From Pseudomonadota bacterium (GTDB lineage Bacteria > Desulfobacterota > JAPLJL01): 40,778 nt of DNA. Positions 1,913-21,379 of this stretch are shown here, piece after piece (within the stretch, counting starts at the first letter, position 1; each line of letters begins with the position of its first letter). The notes under the pieces are model-generated. The model did no database searches. It worked only from the letters and a program-made list of their open reading frames with translations, and was not told the origin of the DNA. The stretch is taken from contig JAPLJI010000070.1 of NCBI GenBank assembly GCA_026388655.1, positions 1-40,778 on the forward strand, given 5' to 3'. Position numbers and translations under genes: made by a program.

Positions 1913-4900
1913 ATGCCACTGACCAATCACCCGCGCCGAGCCCAGAGGGATGATAATTCCCGGGTGGTGGAACTCGCGCTCCTGCTTTTCCTGATCTTCG
2001 GTGGGATTACCATCGGGCGGAGCCTGCGCCTGACCTTCCTTCTCCAAACAATCGGGATCAAGAGTCTTCCCTACCTCTACGTCCTGAACGCGGTTTTCAC
2101 CGTCGGGGTTTCGCTCGCCTTCGCGGGTGTGGTGGACCGGATCAAGCGGCACCGGGTCCTCTCCTTCACCGCGTTCAGCCTGGGAACGCTCGCGCTCCTG
2201 GGGCGCTTCTCCGTGGGGGGAAATATCTTTCCGATTATTTTCTTCATCGGGATTGAAGTGGCCACGGTCCTCCTCATTACCCAGTTCTGGAACCTGGCCG
2301 CGGCCTTCTTCCCCGTCCGGGAGGCCAAGAAGACCTTTCCCCTCCTGGCCGCGGGAGGTCTCGTCGGGGCGGTCCTGGCCGGCTTCGGCCTGAAACTCGG
2401 GGTGGAAAAGATCCATACCGAAAATGCCCTGTTTCTGCTCGGGGCCATGTGGCTTTGCGCCGGCGGTCTGGCCCTGCGCACCGGTGAGCCCGCCCGGAGG
2501 AGCGAGGAAACGGCCTTCCCTTCCTCCGGCGGCCTCCTGGGCTCGGTTACCCGGCCGCTCCAGGACCTGCGCGAGGGCATTCGCTACACCGCGGGTTCCC
2601 GGTTCGTCCAGTATTTTTTCGTGGCGACGGTTTTTTCCATTTTCATCACCTACCTGATTGAGTATGAATACAACCGGGTGGCGGCCCTCGCTTTTCCCGA
2701 GGCGGACCGGCTGACCGCCTTTTACGGCCTGCTCCAGGGCCTGGCCTATCTTCCCGCCCTGTTGATTAACCTGTTCGCCTTGGGACGGGTGCTCGAATTC
2801 TTCGGTGTCGGCCTGGCCTACCTTTTCTACCCCTTTGGGCTCCTGGGCTTCAGCGGAATCATGGCCACCACCGCCGGATTTTTCGGAACCGTGGCCACCC
2901 GGGTGACCAACGACATTTTCCTCTATACCGTTAACGACGGCGCCGGGAATTTATTCCTCGGCTCGGTTCCCGCGGAGGTGCGCGGCAAGATCCGGTCCCT
3001 CATCCTCGGGGTGGGGCGGCCGGTGGCCCTTGGGCTTTCCGGGCTCTTCCTGATGTTCGGGGTCGCCTATCTTTCCGACCAGCTCCGCCTGGTCGGGATT
3101 TTTCTCCTCACCGGTCTCTGGCTCCTGCTCTCGGCCTTCCCCCTCCGGAGAAACTACCTGACTCTCCTCTCCCAGAACCTGGCCCGGGATGACCAGGAGC
3201 TCAAGCTTCATGCCATCAGGAGCCTGAAAAAAATCAACACCCCCGCCGGCCAGGATTACCTGGTAAATCTCCTGGCCGGCCGCGACCCCCGGGCGTCCCG
3301 CTTCGCCATGGAGCTGGCCCTCTCCACGGGTTCCCCACGCCTCCTCCGCCGCCTGACCGGGTTTTCCGGTTCGGATGACCCCCGGACCCGGGCCGGGGCG
3401 ATCCGGGCCGCGGTCCGCCTCGGCGACCCGGCTTTCCTCCCCGGGCTGAAGGATTTCCTGGGCGATGAAAGCCCCGAGGTCAGGAGGGAAGCCGCCCGGG
3501 CTTATCTGGCTTTCCGGCCCGCGGAAATCGGAGAGGTATGTTCGGATCGTCTGAAAATCGAAAGCGAACCCCGGGTCCGGGCCCTGCTCTGGAAGGGGGT
3601 AATTTCGATTAGTAGGGCGCATTCCCCGAATGCGCCGGGACAGCCCGATTGGGAATCGGGCCCTACACAAGAAAAATCATTTTTCCCATTGATCCCGGAC
3701 GATCTAAAAGAGGAAATCAAGCGGATGATCCGCTCCGACGATGAAGAGGAGAGGCTGACCGCCCTGGATCTCCTGGAATGGATCGGGATCCCCGGGTTCG
3801 AGCAGGAGGTCCTGGATTTCCTGCTCCAGTCCACGAACGTAACCAAGGTTTGCTCGATTTTGCAGAAGGGCGGCCCCGCCCTCGCGCCCCAGGTACTGTC
3901 CTGGTTGGAACTGGGCCTGCCCGAGCGGGTGCAGGGAATTTTCTACCGCTTCCTGGGTGAGCTCGGGGACGAAAAGATTCTCCGGGTCCTCCGGATCTCC
4001 CTCTTCGAAAAATCCGGGGTGTCCCGGCTGGAATTGATTGAAGCCCTGAAGCGCTGGCGGGCCCGGGCGGGGAAAAACCCGCTCTCCCCGGAGGAGATCT
4101 CGACCCTCCTCTCCGATTCGATCCAGAGGCACGACGAGTCCCTCCGGAAGCTTACCTGCTTTGACCGGGGTCTCCCGCCCGACATATCTTTTTCGCTCCG
4201 TTCCTGCTGGTTGACCCAGATCAATCTCGAAGTCGAAACGATCCTGGCCCTGATCGGCCTGCTGATCGAGGAACAGTTGGCCCAGAAAATCAAGCATTCC
4301 CTCTCCGGGGGATCGGAAGCGGAGCGGCAGAGCGCCCTCGAAGCCCTGGAGGAGGTTTTGCCCCATTCCCTCCGGGGCGCGGTCATGCGGATCCTCGACC
4401 CCCGCCCGGATCCTCGAGCCCCGGTTTCCGATCCCGGGGTGGACGGGAAGGCCTGCCGGGAAGAATTGACCACCCTGATCGAAAAGGGCAACCGCTTCGA
4501 GCGGGCCTTCGCTATCCTGGCGGCTCCCTTCTTTCCGGATTCTTTCTCCGGGAAGTGGAAAGATAAAATTCAGGAACTGGCATCCGATCCCGATCCGCGG
4601 GTGCGGGAGGCGGTGGAAATTTTAAATCGCTCCGGAAAAACCATGGAGGAGAAAAAAATGTTGACGGTTTTGGAAAAAGTCATGTTTCTCCAGGGGGTGG
4701 GAATCTTCCAACACCTCGCGATGGAGGACCTCGAATTTCTCGCGGACATCGCCCGGGACGTCCGGGTGAAAAAGGGAGAGATCCTTTTTCATCAAAACGA
4801 CCCCGGGGATTCGCTTTTCCTGATCGTCTCGGGCAGCGTGGCGGTCCTCCGGGAAGAGGAAGGAAAGCAAAAGCAAGTCGCCCTCCTCTCCGAAAGGGAA

Positions 4901-5083
4901 TGCGTGGGCGAGATGGCCATCCTGGCCGCCGAGCCCCGGACCGCCACGGTGGAAACCCGGGAAAATACCGATTTCCTGATCATCCGCGGGGTGGATTTCC
5001 GCGACCTGATCCGGATGAACCCCAGTATCGTTTACCCGATCTTCAGATTGCTGGTGGATCGTTTACGGGTAGCGACAAAATAA
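1913..5083 (+). CDS. MFS/nucleotide-transporter-like membrane protein fused to HEAT repeats and a cNMP-binding domain
   Basis: A 1056-residue protein in three parts. Residues about 20-415 form about 12 hydrophobic helices of the MFS or ATP/ADP-translocase (Npt/Tlc) type. Residues about 425-915 are HEAT-like helical repeats, e.g. PRTRAGAIRAAVRLGDPAF and SPEVRREAARAYLAF. Residues about 923-1050 form a Crp-type cyclic-nucleotide-binding domain: KKGEILFHQNDPGDSLFLI, then CVGEMAILAAEPRTATV. This keeps the Glu and Arg of the phosphate-binding cassette, so cAMP or cGMP binding is plausible. The substrate cannot be told; pathogens' ATP/ADP exchangers lack these extra domains. GGTGA lies 5 bases before the ATG. 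A REPIN-like palindrome at 3612-3666 is translated in frame as part of residues 566-590, in the HEAT region. It stands alone on this strand, with a REP-like hairpin 2 bases after the stop. Confidence 0.85.
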   Translation: MPLTNHPRRAQRDDNSRVVELALLLFLIFGGITIGRSLRLTFLLQTIGIKSLPYLYVLNAVFTVGVSLAFAGVVDRIKRHRVLSFTAFSLGTLALLGRFSVGGNIFPIIFFIGIEVATVLLITQFWNLAAAFFPVREAKKTFPLLAAGGLVGAVLAGFGLKLGVEKIHTENALFLLGAMWLCAGGLALRTGEPARRSEETAFPSSGGLLGSVTRPLQDLREGIRYTAGSRFVQYFFVATVFSIFITYLIEYEYNRVAALAFPEADRLTAFYGLLQGLAYLPALLINLFALGRVLEFFGVGLAYLFYPFGLLGFSGIMATTAGFFGTVATRVTNDIFLYTVNDGAGNLFLGSVPAEVRGKIRSLILGVGRPVALGLSGLFLMFGVAYLSDQLRLVGIFLLTGLWLLLSAFPLRRNYLTLLSQNLARDDQELKLHAIRSLKKINTPAGQDYLVNLLAGRDPRASRFAMELALSTGSPRLLRRLTGFSGSDDPRTRAGAIRAAVRLGDPAFLPGLKDFLGDESPEVRREAARAYLAFRPAEIGEVCSDRLKIESEPRVRALLWKGVISISRAHSPNAPGQPDWESGPTQEKSFFPLIPDDLKEEIKRMIRSDDEEERLTALDLLEWIGIPGFEQEVLDFLLQSTNVTKVCSILQKGGPALAPQVLSWLELGLPERVQGIFYRFLGELGDEKILRVLRISLFEKSGVSRLELIEALKRWRARAGKNPLSPEEISTLLSDSIQRHDESLRKLTCFDRGLPPDISFSLRSCWLTQINLEVETILALIGLLIEEQLAQKIKHSLSGGSEAERQSALEALEEVLPHSLRGAVMRILDPRPDPRAPVSDPGVDGKACREELTTLIEKGNRFERAFAILAAPFFPDSFSGKWKDKIQELASDPDPRVREAVEILNRSGKTMEEKKMLTVLEKVMFLQGVGIFQHLAMEDLEFLADIARDVRVKKGEILFHQNDPGDSLFLIVSGSVAVLREEEGKQKQVALLSERECVGEMAILAAEPRTATVETRENTDFLIIRGVDFRDLIRMNPSIVYPIFRLLVDRLRVATK
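3612..3666. repeat. REPIN-like palindromic element inside the transporter-HEAT gene
   Basis: 55 bp bounded by GTAGGG and CCCTAC. It contains two perfect hairpins: GGCGCATTC-CCC-GAATGCGCC (9-bp stem) and CCCGATT-GGG-AATCGGG (7-bp stem). The three-arm fold with GTAG feet matches the element at 21322-21379. It is read through in frame in the host gene, giving a proline- and serine-rich stretch (SRAHSPNAPGQPDWESGPT) unlike the helical repeats on either side. Confidence 0.75.
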
Positions 5084-5085
5084 TC

Positions 5086-5108
5086 GTAGCCGCAGGCTTC
5101 AGCCTGCG
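5086..5108 (+). repeat. REP-like element (GTAG foot plus hairpin)
   Basis: GTAG followed by CGCAGGCT-TC-AGCCTGCG, a perfect 8-bp hairpin, starting 2 bases after the stop of the gene ending at 5083. A near-identical copy (loop TT) is at 10611-10633. Such elements at 3' ends can protect or end transcripts, but that is not shown here. Confidence 0.7.
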
Positions 5109-10610: not shown

Positions 10611-10633
10611 GTAGCCGCAGGCTTTAGCCTGCG
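10611..10633 (+). repeat. REP-like element (GTAG foot plus hairpin)
   Basis: GTAG then CGCAGGCT-TT-AGCCTGCG, an 8-bp hairpin matching the copy at 5086-5108 apart from one loop base. Upstream of it, 10560-10590 is made of degenerate ATTGACGATTG repeats; downstream, 10680-10710 has a short CACTGACAC-type repeat. No gene seen in 10556-10995. Confidence 0.7.
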
Positions 10634-17970: not shown

Positions 17971-18354
17971 ATGGCCATGCTGCCGGAAGAATTCTATCGA
18001 TCTAAAATTTTGACCTGCTCTCCCCGAAAATCAGTCGATCTTCCCGGGCCAAGAGATTACAATGAAATTCGCATTGAAAAAAGCCTTTTCGAATGGAGAC
18101 TTTATTATTCTAAAAAAAGATATTTGTGTTGTCCGTCCGAATGGGAAGCCCGCTATCTAAAAGTCTGGCTCGAAGGAGGACTGAATAAAATCGAAATGCC
18201 TTCTAATGAAGAACTTCTTAAAAATATTACTCTCGAACTTGAGAAACTCTCCTTAAGAATATTGAAATTGGCTGATGAAAAACTTGCCGGTTATCGTGAA
18301 CCGATAAAACGCGAAGTCCTCCAAGGCGTATGGCAAGTTGAAGAGTCAAAATAA
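17971..18354 (+). CDS. Small protein of unknown function in the defence cassette
   Basis: 127 residues; not recognised. It starts 2 bases after the restriction enzyme stop with GGAGA 7 bases upstream, so it is surely part of the same transcript. Residues about 40-75 are rich in aromatic and basic residues (EWRLYYSKKRYLCCPSEWEARYLKVW), followed by a leucine-rich helix (LLKNITLELEKLSLRILKLADEKL) that could form a coiled coil. No catalytic motif, signal peptide or membrane segment is seen. It could be a partner or specificity aid of the restriction enzyme, but nothing in the sequence proves this. Confidence 0.7.
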   Translation: MAMLPEEFYRSKILTCSPRKSVDLPGPRDYNEIRIEKSLFEWRLYYSKKRYLCCPSEWEARYLKVWLEGGLNKIEMPSNEELLKNITLELEKLSLRILKLADEKLAGYREPIKREVLQGVWQVEESK

Positions 18355-18404
18355 CCACATAATGATTTAAGAAAATAATTTTTAAGGGACTATCAATAAC
18401 CGTC

Positions 18405-19271
18405 ATGAAAAAACAAGAAAACAAATTATGGAATAAAGCCAGATATTCATTAGAGAAACATTATAAATATATTTGTTCCAACCCAAATTCAAAGAATTCA
18501 AAGTTAAAAGCAGGGTTTATTAACATAGGTATCGGTGGAATCATAGCTGACGTTATCGGTATAAAGGATATTGGAAACCATTTCGAGCCAAAAATAGAGA
18601 TTATTGCCATTGAAGTTAAAGAAAATCTTCCAAATTATCGAGAAAGACATATGGATCAGGTTAGAAGGGCATCTGTTTTCGCCCATAAGGTTTTTCTTGC
18701 TGCCCCAAGAGAATTTAAACCGGAGGAAGTGGAACTTGCTGTTAAGGAAAGAGTGGGATTATTTGAACTTAATCCTGAGAAAAGAAAATTAAAATTAATC
18801 GTCCCCTCTCCCCCTTTTGAGCCATCGGAAAGCAAAATTATTGAATTAATGAGAAGGCTAGATTTTTTTAAATGTACCGTTTGCAACTGTTATTGGAATA
18901 AAAATCTAATAACCATAGATGGTTATAGGTCAACCCATGTATTTTCAAATAATATAAAACCTCTGAGATTCAATAAATTCATTTGCGATAAGTGTTCTTC
19001 TAAATTATTCAAGCTCCATTCTAAGGATTTGAGCAATAAATTCGCTGAGGAATGGAAAGTCAAACGGATAAATAAAAAAACAGAAAAAATCGATTTACGA
19101 ACTAAAAAATTAGCGGAAAAAAAAGATATCAGCAAAATCAACGACAGGTTGTCTAAAGAAGATGAAAAAATAAAAAATATGAGAAGATATTTTAAAGAAT
19201 TATTTAATAAAAGACTTAAATCACTTAACAAACAATTAAACAAAGTCAGGAGAGGTTTAAAATCCATTTAA
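18405..19271 (+). CDS. Putative PD-(D/E)XK nuclease with zinc-knuckle-like region and basic coiled-coil tail
   Basis: 288 residues. Residues 45-100 have a restriction-endonuclease-like core: IADVIGIKDIG (Asp49), then IEIIAIEVKENL (Glu70-x-Lys72), then MDQVRRASVFAHKVFLAAP, the usual third strand and helix. Four cysteines in two pairs, CTVC (157-160) and CDKC (194-197), could bind zinc. The last 80 residues are highly charged, Lys-rich and helical. This suggests a DNA- or RNA-cutting enzyme; the family is not one I can name. It lies 50 bases after the previous gene and is the most AT-rich gene of the window. It closes the cassette; galK begins 30 bases later in DNA of ordinary composition. Confidence 0.65.
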   Translation: MKKQENKLWNKARYSLEKHYKYICSNPNSKNSKLKAGFINIGIGGIIADVIGIKDIGNHFEPKIEIIAIEVKENLPNYRERHMDQVRRASVFAHKVFLAAPREFKPEEVELAVKERVGLFELNPEKRKLKLIVPSPPFEPSESKIIELMRRLDFFKCTVCNCYWNKNLITIDGYRSTHVFSNNIKPLRFNKFICDKCSSKLFKLHSKDLSNKFAEEWKVKRINKKTEKIDLRTKKLAEKKDISKINDRLSKEDEKIKNMRRYFKELFNKRLKSLNKQLNKVRRGLKSI

Positions 19272-21321: not shown

Positions 21322-21379
21322 GTAGGGGCGGCATTCCATTGCCGCCCGAATGAGGGAGCCAGTTGAATGGCTCCCCTAC
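21322..21379. repeat. REPIN-like element with GTAGGGG ends
   Basis: GTAGGGG...CCCCTAC enclose hairpins GGGCGGCA-TTCCAT-TGCCGCCC and GGGAGCCA-GTTGAA-TGGCTCCC. Same plan as the element inside the gene at 3612-3666. Confidence 0.75.

Follow-up and report, generated by a model that had tools for sequence, protein, structure and literature searches.

The window analysed here is a stretch of 40,778 nucleotides (contig JAPLJI010000070.1, assembly GCA_026388655.1) from a bacterium assigned by GTDB to the Desulfobacterota, and it contains a gene for a composite protein through whose reading frame runs a palindromic doublet of the REPIN type. Throughout, the genome of the window (G000) is compared with those of two sister species of the same genus (G001 and G002). 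The features on which the account turns are the following:

1913-5083, + strand: the host gene, an open reading frame of 1056 aa with a transporter-like N-terminus, HEAT repeats and a C-terminal cyclic-nucleotide-binding domain.
3612-3666, + strand: a GTAG-REP head-to-head doublet (REPIN-like), 55 bp, in frame, with residues 567-585 reading SRAHSPNAPGQPDWESGPT.
3612-3636, + strand: half 1 of the doublet, GTAG with a 9-bp stem and a CCC loop, GTAGGGCGCATTCCCCGAATGCGCC; it matches GTAGGG-N5-TCCCCGA-N5-CC with zero mismatches.
3637-3642, no strand: the 6-bp spacer GGGACA; spacers of 6-7 bp are also found in other head-to-head doublets of the CCC-loop subfamily described below.
3643-3666, - strand: half 2, GTAG with an 8-bp stem and a CCC loop, GTAGGGCCCGATTCCCAATCGGGC; it is like the dispersed G002 copies GTAGGGCCCGTTTCCCAAACGGGCC and GTAGGGCCCGGTTCCCAACCGGGCC.
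21322-21379, + strand: an intergenic REPIN of another GTAG subfamily, with GTAGGGG, 8-bp stems and TT-type loops (TTCNNN), scoring 68 bits with the covariance model R1.

The in-gene doublet reads GTAGGGCGCATTC CCC GAATGCGCC GGGACA GCCCGATT GGG AATCGGGC CCTAC, bounded by GTAGGG and CCCTAC, and its layout of 25+6+24 bp, with the REPs inverted and GTAG on the outside, is the arrangement typical of REPINs. GTAG directly abuts the 9-bp stem in half 1, and a single base lies between GTAG and the 8-bp stem in half 2. Folded as single-stranded DNA the element gives a 9-bp and an 8-bp hairpin, each with a 3-nt loop (z = -3.9 and -4.4 for the two strands). It is wholly contained in the + strand frame 1913-5083, contributes no stop and encodes S567-T585 (about 19 aa), the frame in use being one that avoids the TAG of GTAG. 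No adjacent hairpin doublet of such size appeared in 200 synonymous-codon and 300 codon-order shuffles of the host gene; this, together with the genome-wide recurrence of the hairpin type, makes the doublet more than a product of chance. The first-pass annotation had described a 55-bp in-frame doublet with GTAGGG/CCCTAC ends, a description confirmed by sequence, fold, reading frame and shuffles alike.

The host protein has Pfam matches to HEAT_2 (464-532), HEAT (508-530) and cNMP_binding (950-1034); its transporter-like N-terminus is without a Pfam match, and that assignment is based on its hydrophobic sequence. The orthologous frames are open, with pS well above pN across residues 424-1056 in the three-species comparison, and there is coding signal on both flanks of the element. 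The gene also has two perfect hairpins without GTAG tags, at 3075-3096 and 4767-4791 of the window (stems of 8 and 9 bp).

In five distant homologues, at 23-26% identity, some 24 of the residues present here (~566-592) are missing; this size is approximate (72 nt against the 55 bp of the element), since HEAT repeats can be aligned only loosely at such a distance. AlphaFold2 was used to model residues 424-914 from all three species; the model, suited to local use only (mean pLDDT 66.8, pTM 0.47), gives pLDDT values of 83-92 for most of the preceding HEAT helices, below 50 for residues 567-592 (144-169 of the fragment) and about 80 for the helix that follows. From the absence of the segment in distant homologues and this pLDDT pattern, the doublet-encoded peptide is, in the model, an added low-confidence loop joining predicted HEAT helices. 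This supports the earlier proposal of a REPIN-like element that is translated in frame and adds a stretch to the HEAT region. Its placement 'inside' a HEAT domain holds in part: helical repeats flank the segment in the model, but the Pfam HEAT match reaches no further than residue 532.

Orthologues at a useful distance are two in number, both from the same genus, and a contig scan returned the same two species. They lie in the metagenome-assembled records JAPLJL010000398.1 (Lake Pavin sediment) and JAQTNV010000018.1 ('Sandtown_A'). In each of them the same DNA occupies the equivalent position in frame, with flanking indels in multiples of three. Hence residues ~566-590, which the first-pass annotation proposed to look for elsewhere, are absent from the five distant homologues but present in both same-genus orthologues; the case that it held would speak against it, namely the same segment encoded by unrelated DNA, was not found among them. 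G001 and G002 are the closest pair (90.6% DNA identity, against 88.6% and 88.4%, respectively, to the gene of the window). The GTAGGG/CCCTAC ends are kept in the window genome and G001, and one stem pair is broken in G001. In G002 both heads are gone through three changes relative to G001, all of them synonymous (GGT>GGC, AGG>CGG, CCT>CCG), although three out of three is statistically not strong. Given that the ends are shared by the window genome and G001 while G001 and G002 are the closest relatives, the simplest reading is that the ends are ancestral and that G002 lost them; with the element present in all three, it most likely predates the split of the three species, as judged from their sequences. 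The first hairpin loop of G002 is GGG in place of CCC, so that its three nucleotides are exactly inverted, which suggests hairpin-mediated mutation; most of the peptide is kept in that species. With a Stenotrophomonas RAYT, altering GTAG leaves cleavage much weaker or absent, and both binding and cleavage suffer when the loop is reverse-complemented (PMC8266576); by analogy, one would expect the copy in G002 to be inert. Neither an exact empty site nor a target duplication for the in-gene copy was found among the two same-genus orthologues, both of which have the insert.

In pN the segment does not differ from the preceding flank (0.09 for both); the peptide is therefore under no special conservation, but it is not free to change either. 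Only one of the 34 stem sites varies among the three species; moved to other positions along the gene, the same mask covers 5.2 varying sites on average, and 4% of these placements are equally conserved. The window genome and G001 differ at none of 14 synonymous sites in the segment, against ~0.26 changes per site elsewhere. These figures bear on the possibility that the hairpins have a role at the DNA or mRNA level, by slowing ribosomes between helices, stabilising or processing the message, or binding nucleoid proteins, such that stems and peptide are both under selection. The conservation effect is, however, marginal (about 1 in 25) and was one of several looks; both heads and one loop are altered in G002, and G001 has its broken stem pair; furthermore, templated repair can keep palindromes matched without any selection. 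Accordingly, we regard a function of the hairpins as unlikely, and the stem conservation as a hint, and no more, of nucleic-acid constraint or templated repair. The fuller form of this idea, in which a translated doublet has been kept across the genus under dual selection, for the peptide loop and for a structured nucleic acid acting in mRNA or DNA, would be somewhat less likely again.

A second alternative is that the in-gene copy belongs to the same REP subfamily as 21322-21379 and was moved by the same RAYT. The two share their layout (two hairpins with GTAG outside) and the GTAGGG/CCCTAC ends, and in this respect the first-pass annotation was right to ascribe a common plan to them. The covariance model R1, for which nine 21322-type doublets in both orientations were taken and the in-gene copy was left out, has stems that covary (99% of cells paired and 63 cells doubly changed, with no shuffle as high). 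Among 150 candidates scored per genome, R1 matches ~62 places in the window genome and similar numbers in both sisters, partial copies counted, and the in-gene copy is absent from these matches. In an unfiltered scan of the window it scores 17 bits, against 68 bits for 21322-21379. The characters that mark the 21322 subfamily, i.e. GTAGGGG, 8-bp stems and a TTNNN-type loop, are not those of the in-gene element, which has CCC loops and, in half 1, a 9-bp stem.

Hairpins with CCC loops and 8-9-bp stems were first noticed in a sister-genome locus (L133). The motif GTAGGG-N5-TCCCCGA-N5-CC has 27 exact matches in the three genomes (5 in the window genome, 6 in G001 and 16 in G002, including the in-gene copies of the first two); the search placed no constraint on N5, yet Watson-Crick pairing holds at 129 of these 135 stem positions, with 11 different N5 stems. 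The pattern of the subfamily is GTAGGG-N5-T[CT]-CCC-[GA]A-N5-CC; a larger set of 54 copies, comprising hand-filtered hits with at most two mismatches, is indicative only. Half 2 resembles the G002 sequence GTAGGGCCCGNTTCCCAANCGGGCC, a common variant of the subfamily, and CCC-loop head-to-head doublets of 56-57 bp occur at G002:C16:1117-1172, G002:C39:13640-13696 and G001:C10:1417-1473. As half 1 is an exact member, half 2 a variant, similar doublets occur elsewhere and the R1 score is low, the in-gene element can be assigned, on its stems and loops, to a separate and dispersed CCC-loop GTAG subfamily. The exact fit of that subfamily leaves membership in the 21322 group very improbable. The dispersal of the CCC-loop copies points to mobility; to this extent the suggestion that the family is or was mobile stands, though no exact empty site for this copy was found in the sister species.

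That the segment is an old native linker whose DNA merely resembles two GTAG-ended hairpins has in its favour that neither exact stem reappears as a REP at other places in the three genomes (outside the three orthologues, that of half 1 is absent and that of half 2 appears solely in short palindromes that have no CCC loop), but is scarcely credible against 0 of 500 shuffles with an adjacent doublet, GTAG heads at both ends, the zero-mismatch and common-variant matches of the two halves to a dispersed subfamily, and the absence of the segment from five distant homologues.

The window genome has seven PF01797 matches in addition to a RAYT gene on contig C164. R1-type REPs directly flank a RAYT of G002 (C13:20905-21369) whose score exceeds the NCBIfam cut-off for REP-associated tyrosine transposases, and REPs of that type also follow a RAYT 3' remnant at a G001 contig edge. 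A candidate mover for the 21322 type is at hand in these, which is the other point that could be urged for a shared mover. The RAYT with matching GTAG-type REPs that the first-pass annotation suggested seeking is hence present in G002 for that subfamily, but no RAYT flanked by CCC-loop REPs was found in the three genomes, which are fragmented MAGs. Other RAYTs adjoin other REP types: GTAGTG in G001 (C147), GTAGTTGCC in the window genome (C148) and GTAGGCGCAACC-TTTA in G002 (C10). Three REPINs stand in tandem in 67-bp steps beside the C13 RAYT of G002 (L070 2918-3106), whence doublets also spread as tandem arrays. Separately, a REP type GTAGCCGCAGGC-TTYA-GCCTGCG lies at 5086-5108 of the window, beginning 2 bp past the stop codon of the host gene, and again at 10611-10633; REPs like it adjoin a RAYT gene in G002 (L137) and lie near one in the window genome (L005).

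Another palindrome occurs twice, in frame, in the C164 RAYT gene itself (18250-18894; L125, L163): one copy, TGTAGGGGCGACGCATGCGTCGCCCCTACA, follows the HUH motif, and a second, partial one is located close to the 3' end. Most of 30 homologues fetched across the phylum (among them L164-L192) have, in the same loop of the protein, GTAGGGG-type palindromes with other stems, read in either of two frames (VGA.. or CRG..). We do not count in-frame REP palindromes in RAYT genes as a novelty, as they have been described for TnpAREP subclass 2.4 (Quentin et al., 2018; PMC6006769).

We consider it very probable that the in-gene doublet is an old insertion of a non-autonomous CCC-loop GTAG REP doublet, which entered in frame, was tolerated as a loop and has been inherited as coding sequence. 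The doublet would have entered the host gene before the three sampled species diverged, probably through a RAYT (Y1 HUH) transposase acting on single-stranded DNA, with the GTAG ends as the presumptive exact junctions. Its landing site would be the connection of two HEAT helices, in the frame that avoids the TAG of GTAG, and it may have been tolerated because it lengthened only a flexible loop. Since then it would have been inherited as ordinary coding sequence, its added peptide probably close to neutral, with the signals for mobility decaying in G002.

Several other REP matches of the window genome fall within open frames in which coding signal both precedes and follows them; they comprise at least one more full doublet and REP remnants. 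A canonical 50-bp doublet is in frame in a 630-aa lipoprotein-like ORF (C119:4698-4747; L085); the G002 orthologue (L162) lacks it, the stretch being variable there, and it is a younger example of the same phenomenon. In-frame half REPs occur in a repeat protein (C148:9659-9715; PEGA-like, by eye) and in a linker before an FGE-sulfatase-like domain (C191:48293-48340; by eye); both lie in linkers of repeat-rich protein families, and for neither could a clean insert-free orthologue be aligned. The first-pass view that REPs rarely settle in open frames without breaking them is not borne out as worded, given these cases and the catalogue of such REPs in many species (PMC3733652). Two further kinds of dispersed repeat were seen. 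GTAGGG..CTACCCTCCGGCCTGTAAGCC.. occurs in various forms from 37815 of the window onwards and at G000:C7:5117, C17:3305, C46:5086, C100:52749 and C101:10292. REPINs with a longer sequence resembling TTTATCCTGAGC..GAAGGA in one hairpin loop (G000:C84:18956, C83:5978, C21:8806, C147:1664) look as though a further repeat had been inserted there; one exact form of the loop-held repeat, a pattern too strict, gave 0 matches in the loci searched.

Intragenic in-frame REPs are already documented, and there is no new kind of system here. Di Nocera et al. (2013; PMC3733652) described 24 REP families, together with GTAG-tagged REPs, head-to-head heterodimers and REP dimers in ORFs that encode 20-30 aa, and proposed loops or linkers as the reason for which intragenic REPs are tolerated. 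The present element shares with these REPs a short perfect hairpin with GTAG at its foot, dimers whose GTAG tags face outwards, heterodimeric stems, stem subfamilies with compensatory changes and location inside ORFs; it differs in its host, an uncultured genus, and in that the insertion is traced through three species. With the REPINs of Bertels and Rainey (2011; PMC3116915) it has in common two inverted REPs as the unit, dispersed copies and RAYT genes in the genome; it differs in that no RAYT matching its subfamily was found in the three fragmented genomes and that its copy number is modest (exact matches: 5 in the window genome, 16 in G002). As in TnpAREP subclass 2.4 (PMC6006769), in-frame REP palindromes are tolerated in a peripheral loop; here, however, the host gene is unrelated to transposases, and the subclass 2.4-like C164 gene holds a different palindrome. 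The Rickettsia palindromic elements (cited in PMC3733652), described before the REP dimers in ORFs of 2013, are likewise palindromic repeats in frame in protein genes that add a short peptide; RPE-4 and RPE-6 are CGTC-tagged (PMC3733652), and the in-gene element is GTAG-tagged.

While the phenomenon itself is thus known from other bacteria, the merit of the finding is its three-species history. Several GTAG subfamilies coexist in one genus, and they need separating before a RAYT is assigned to any of them. The host gene offers a dated case of mobile palindromic DNA becoming protein sequence, in which the fate of an intragenic REP can be compared between species.
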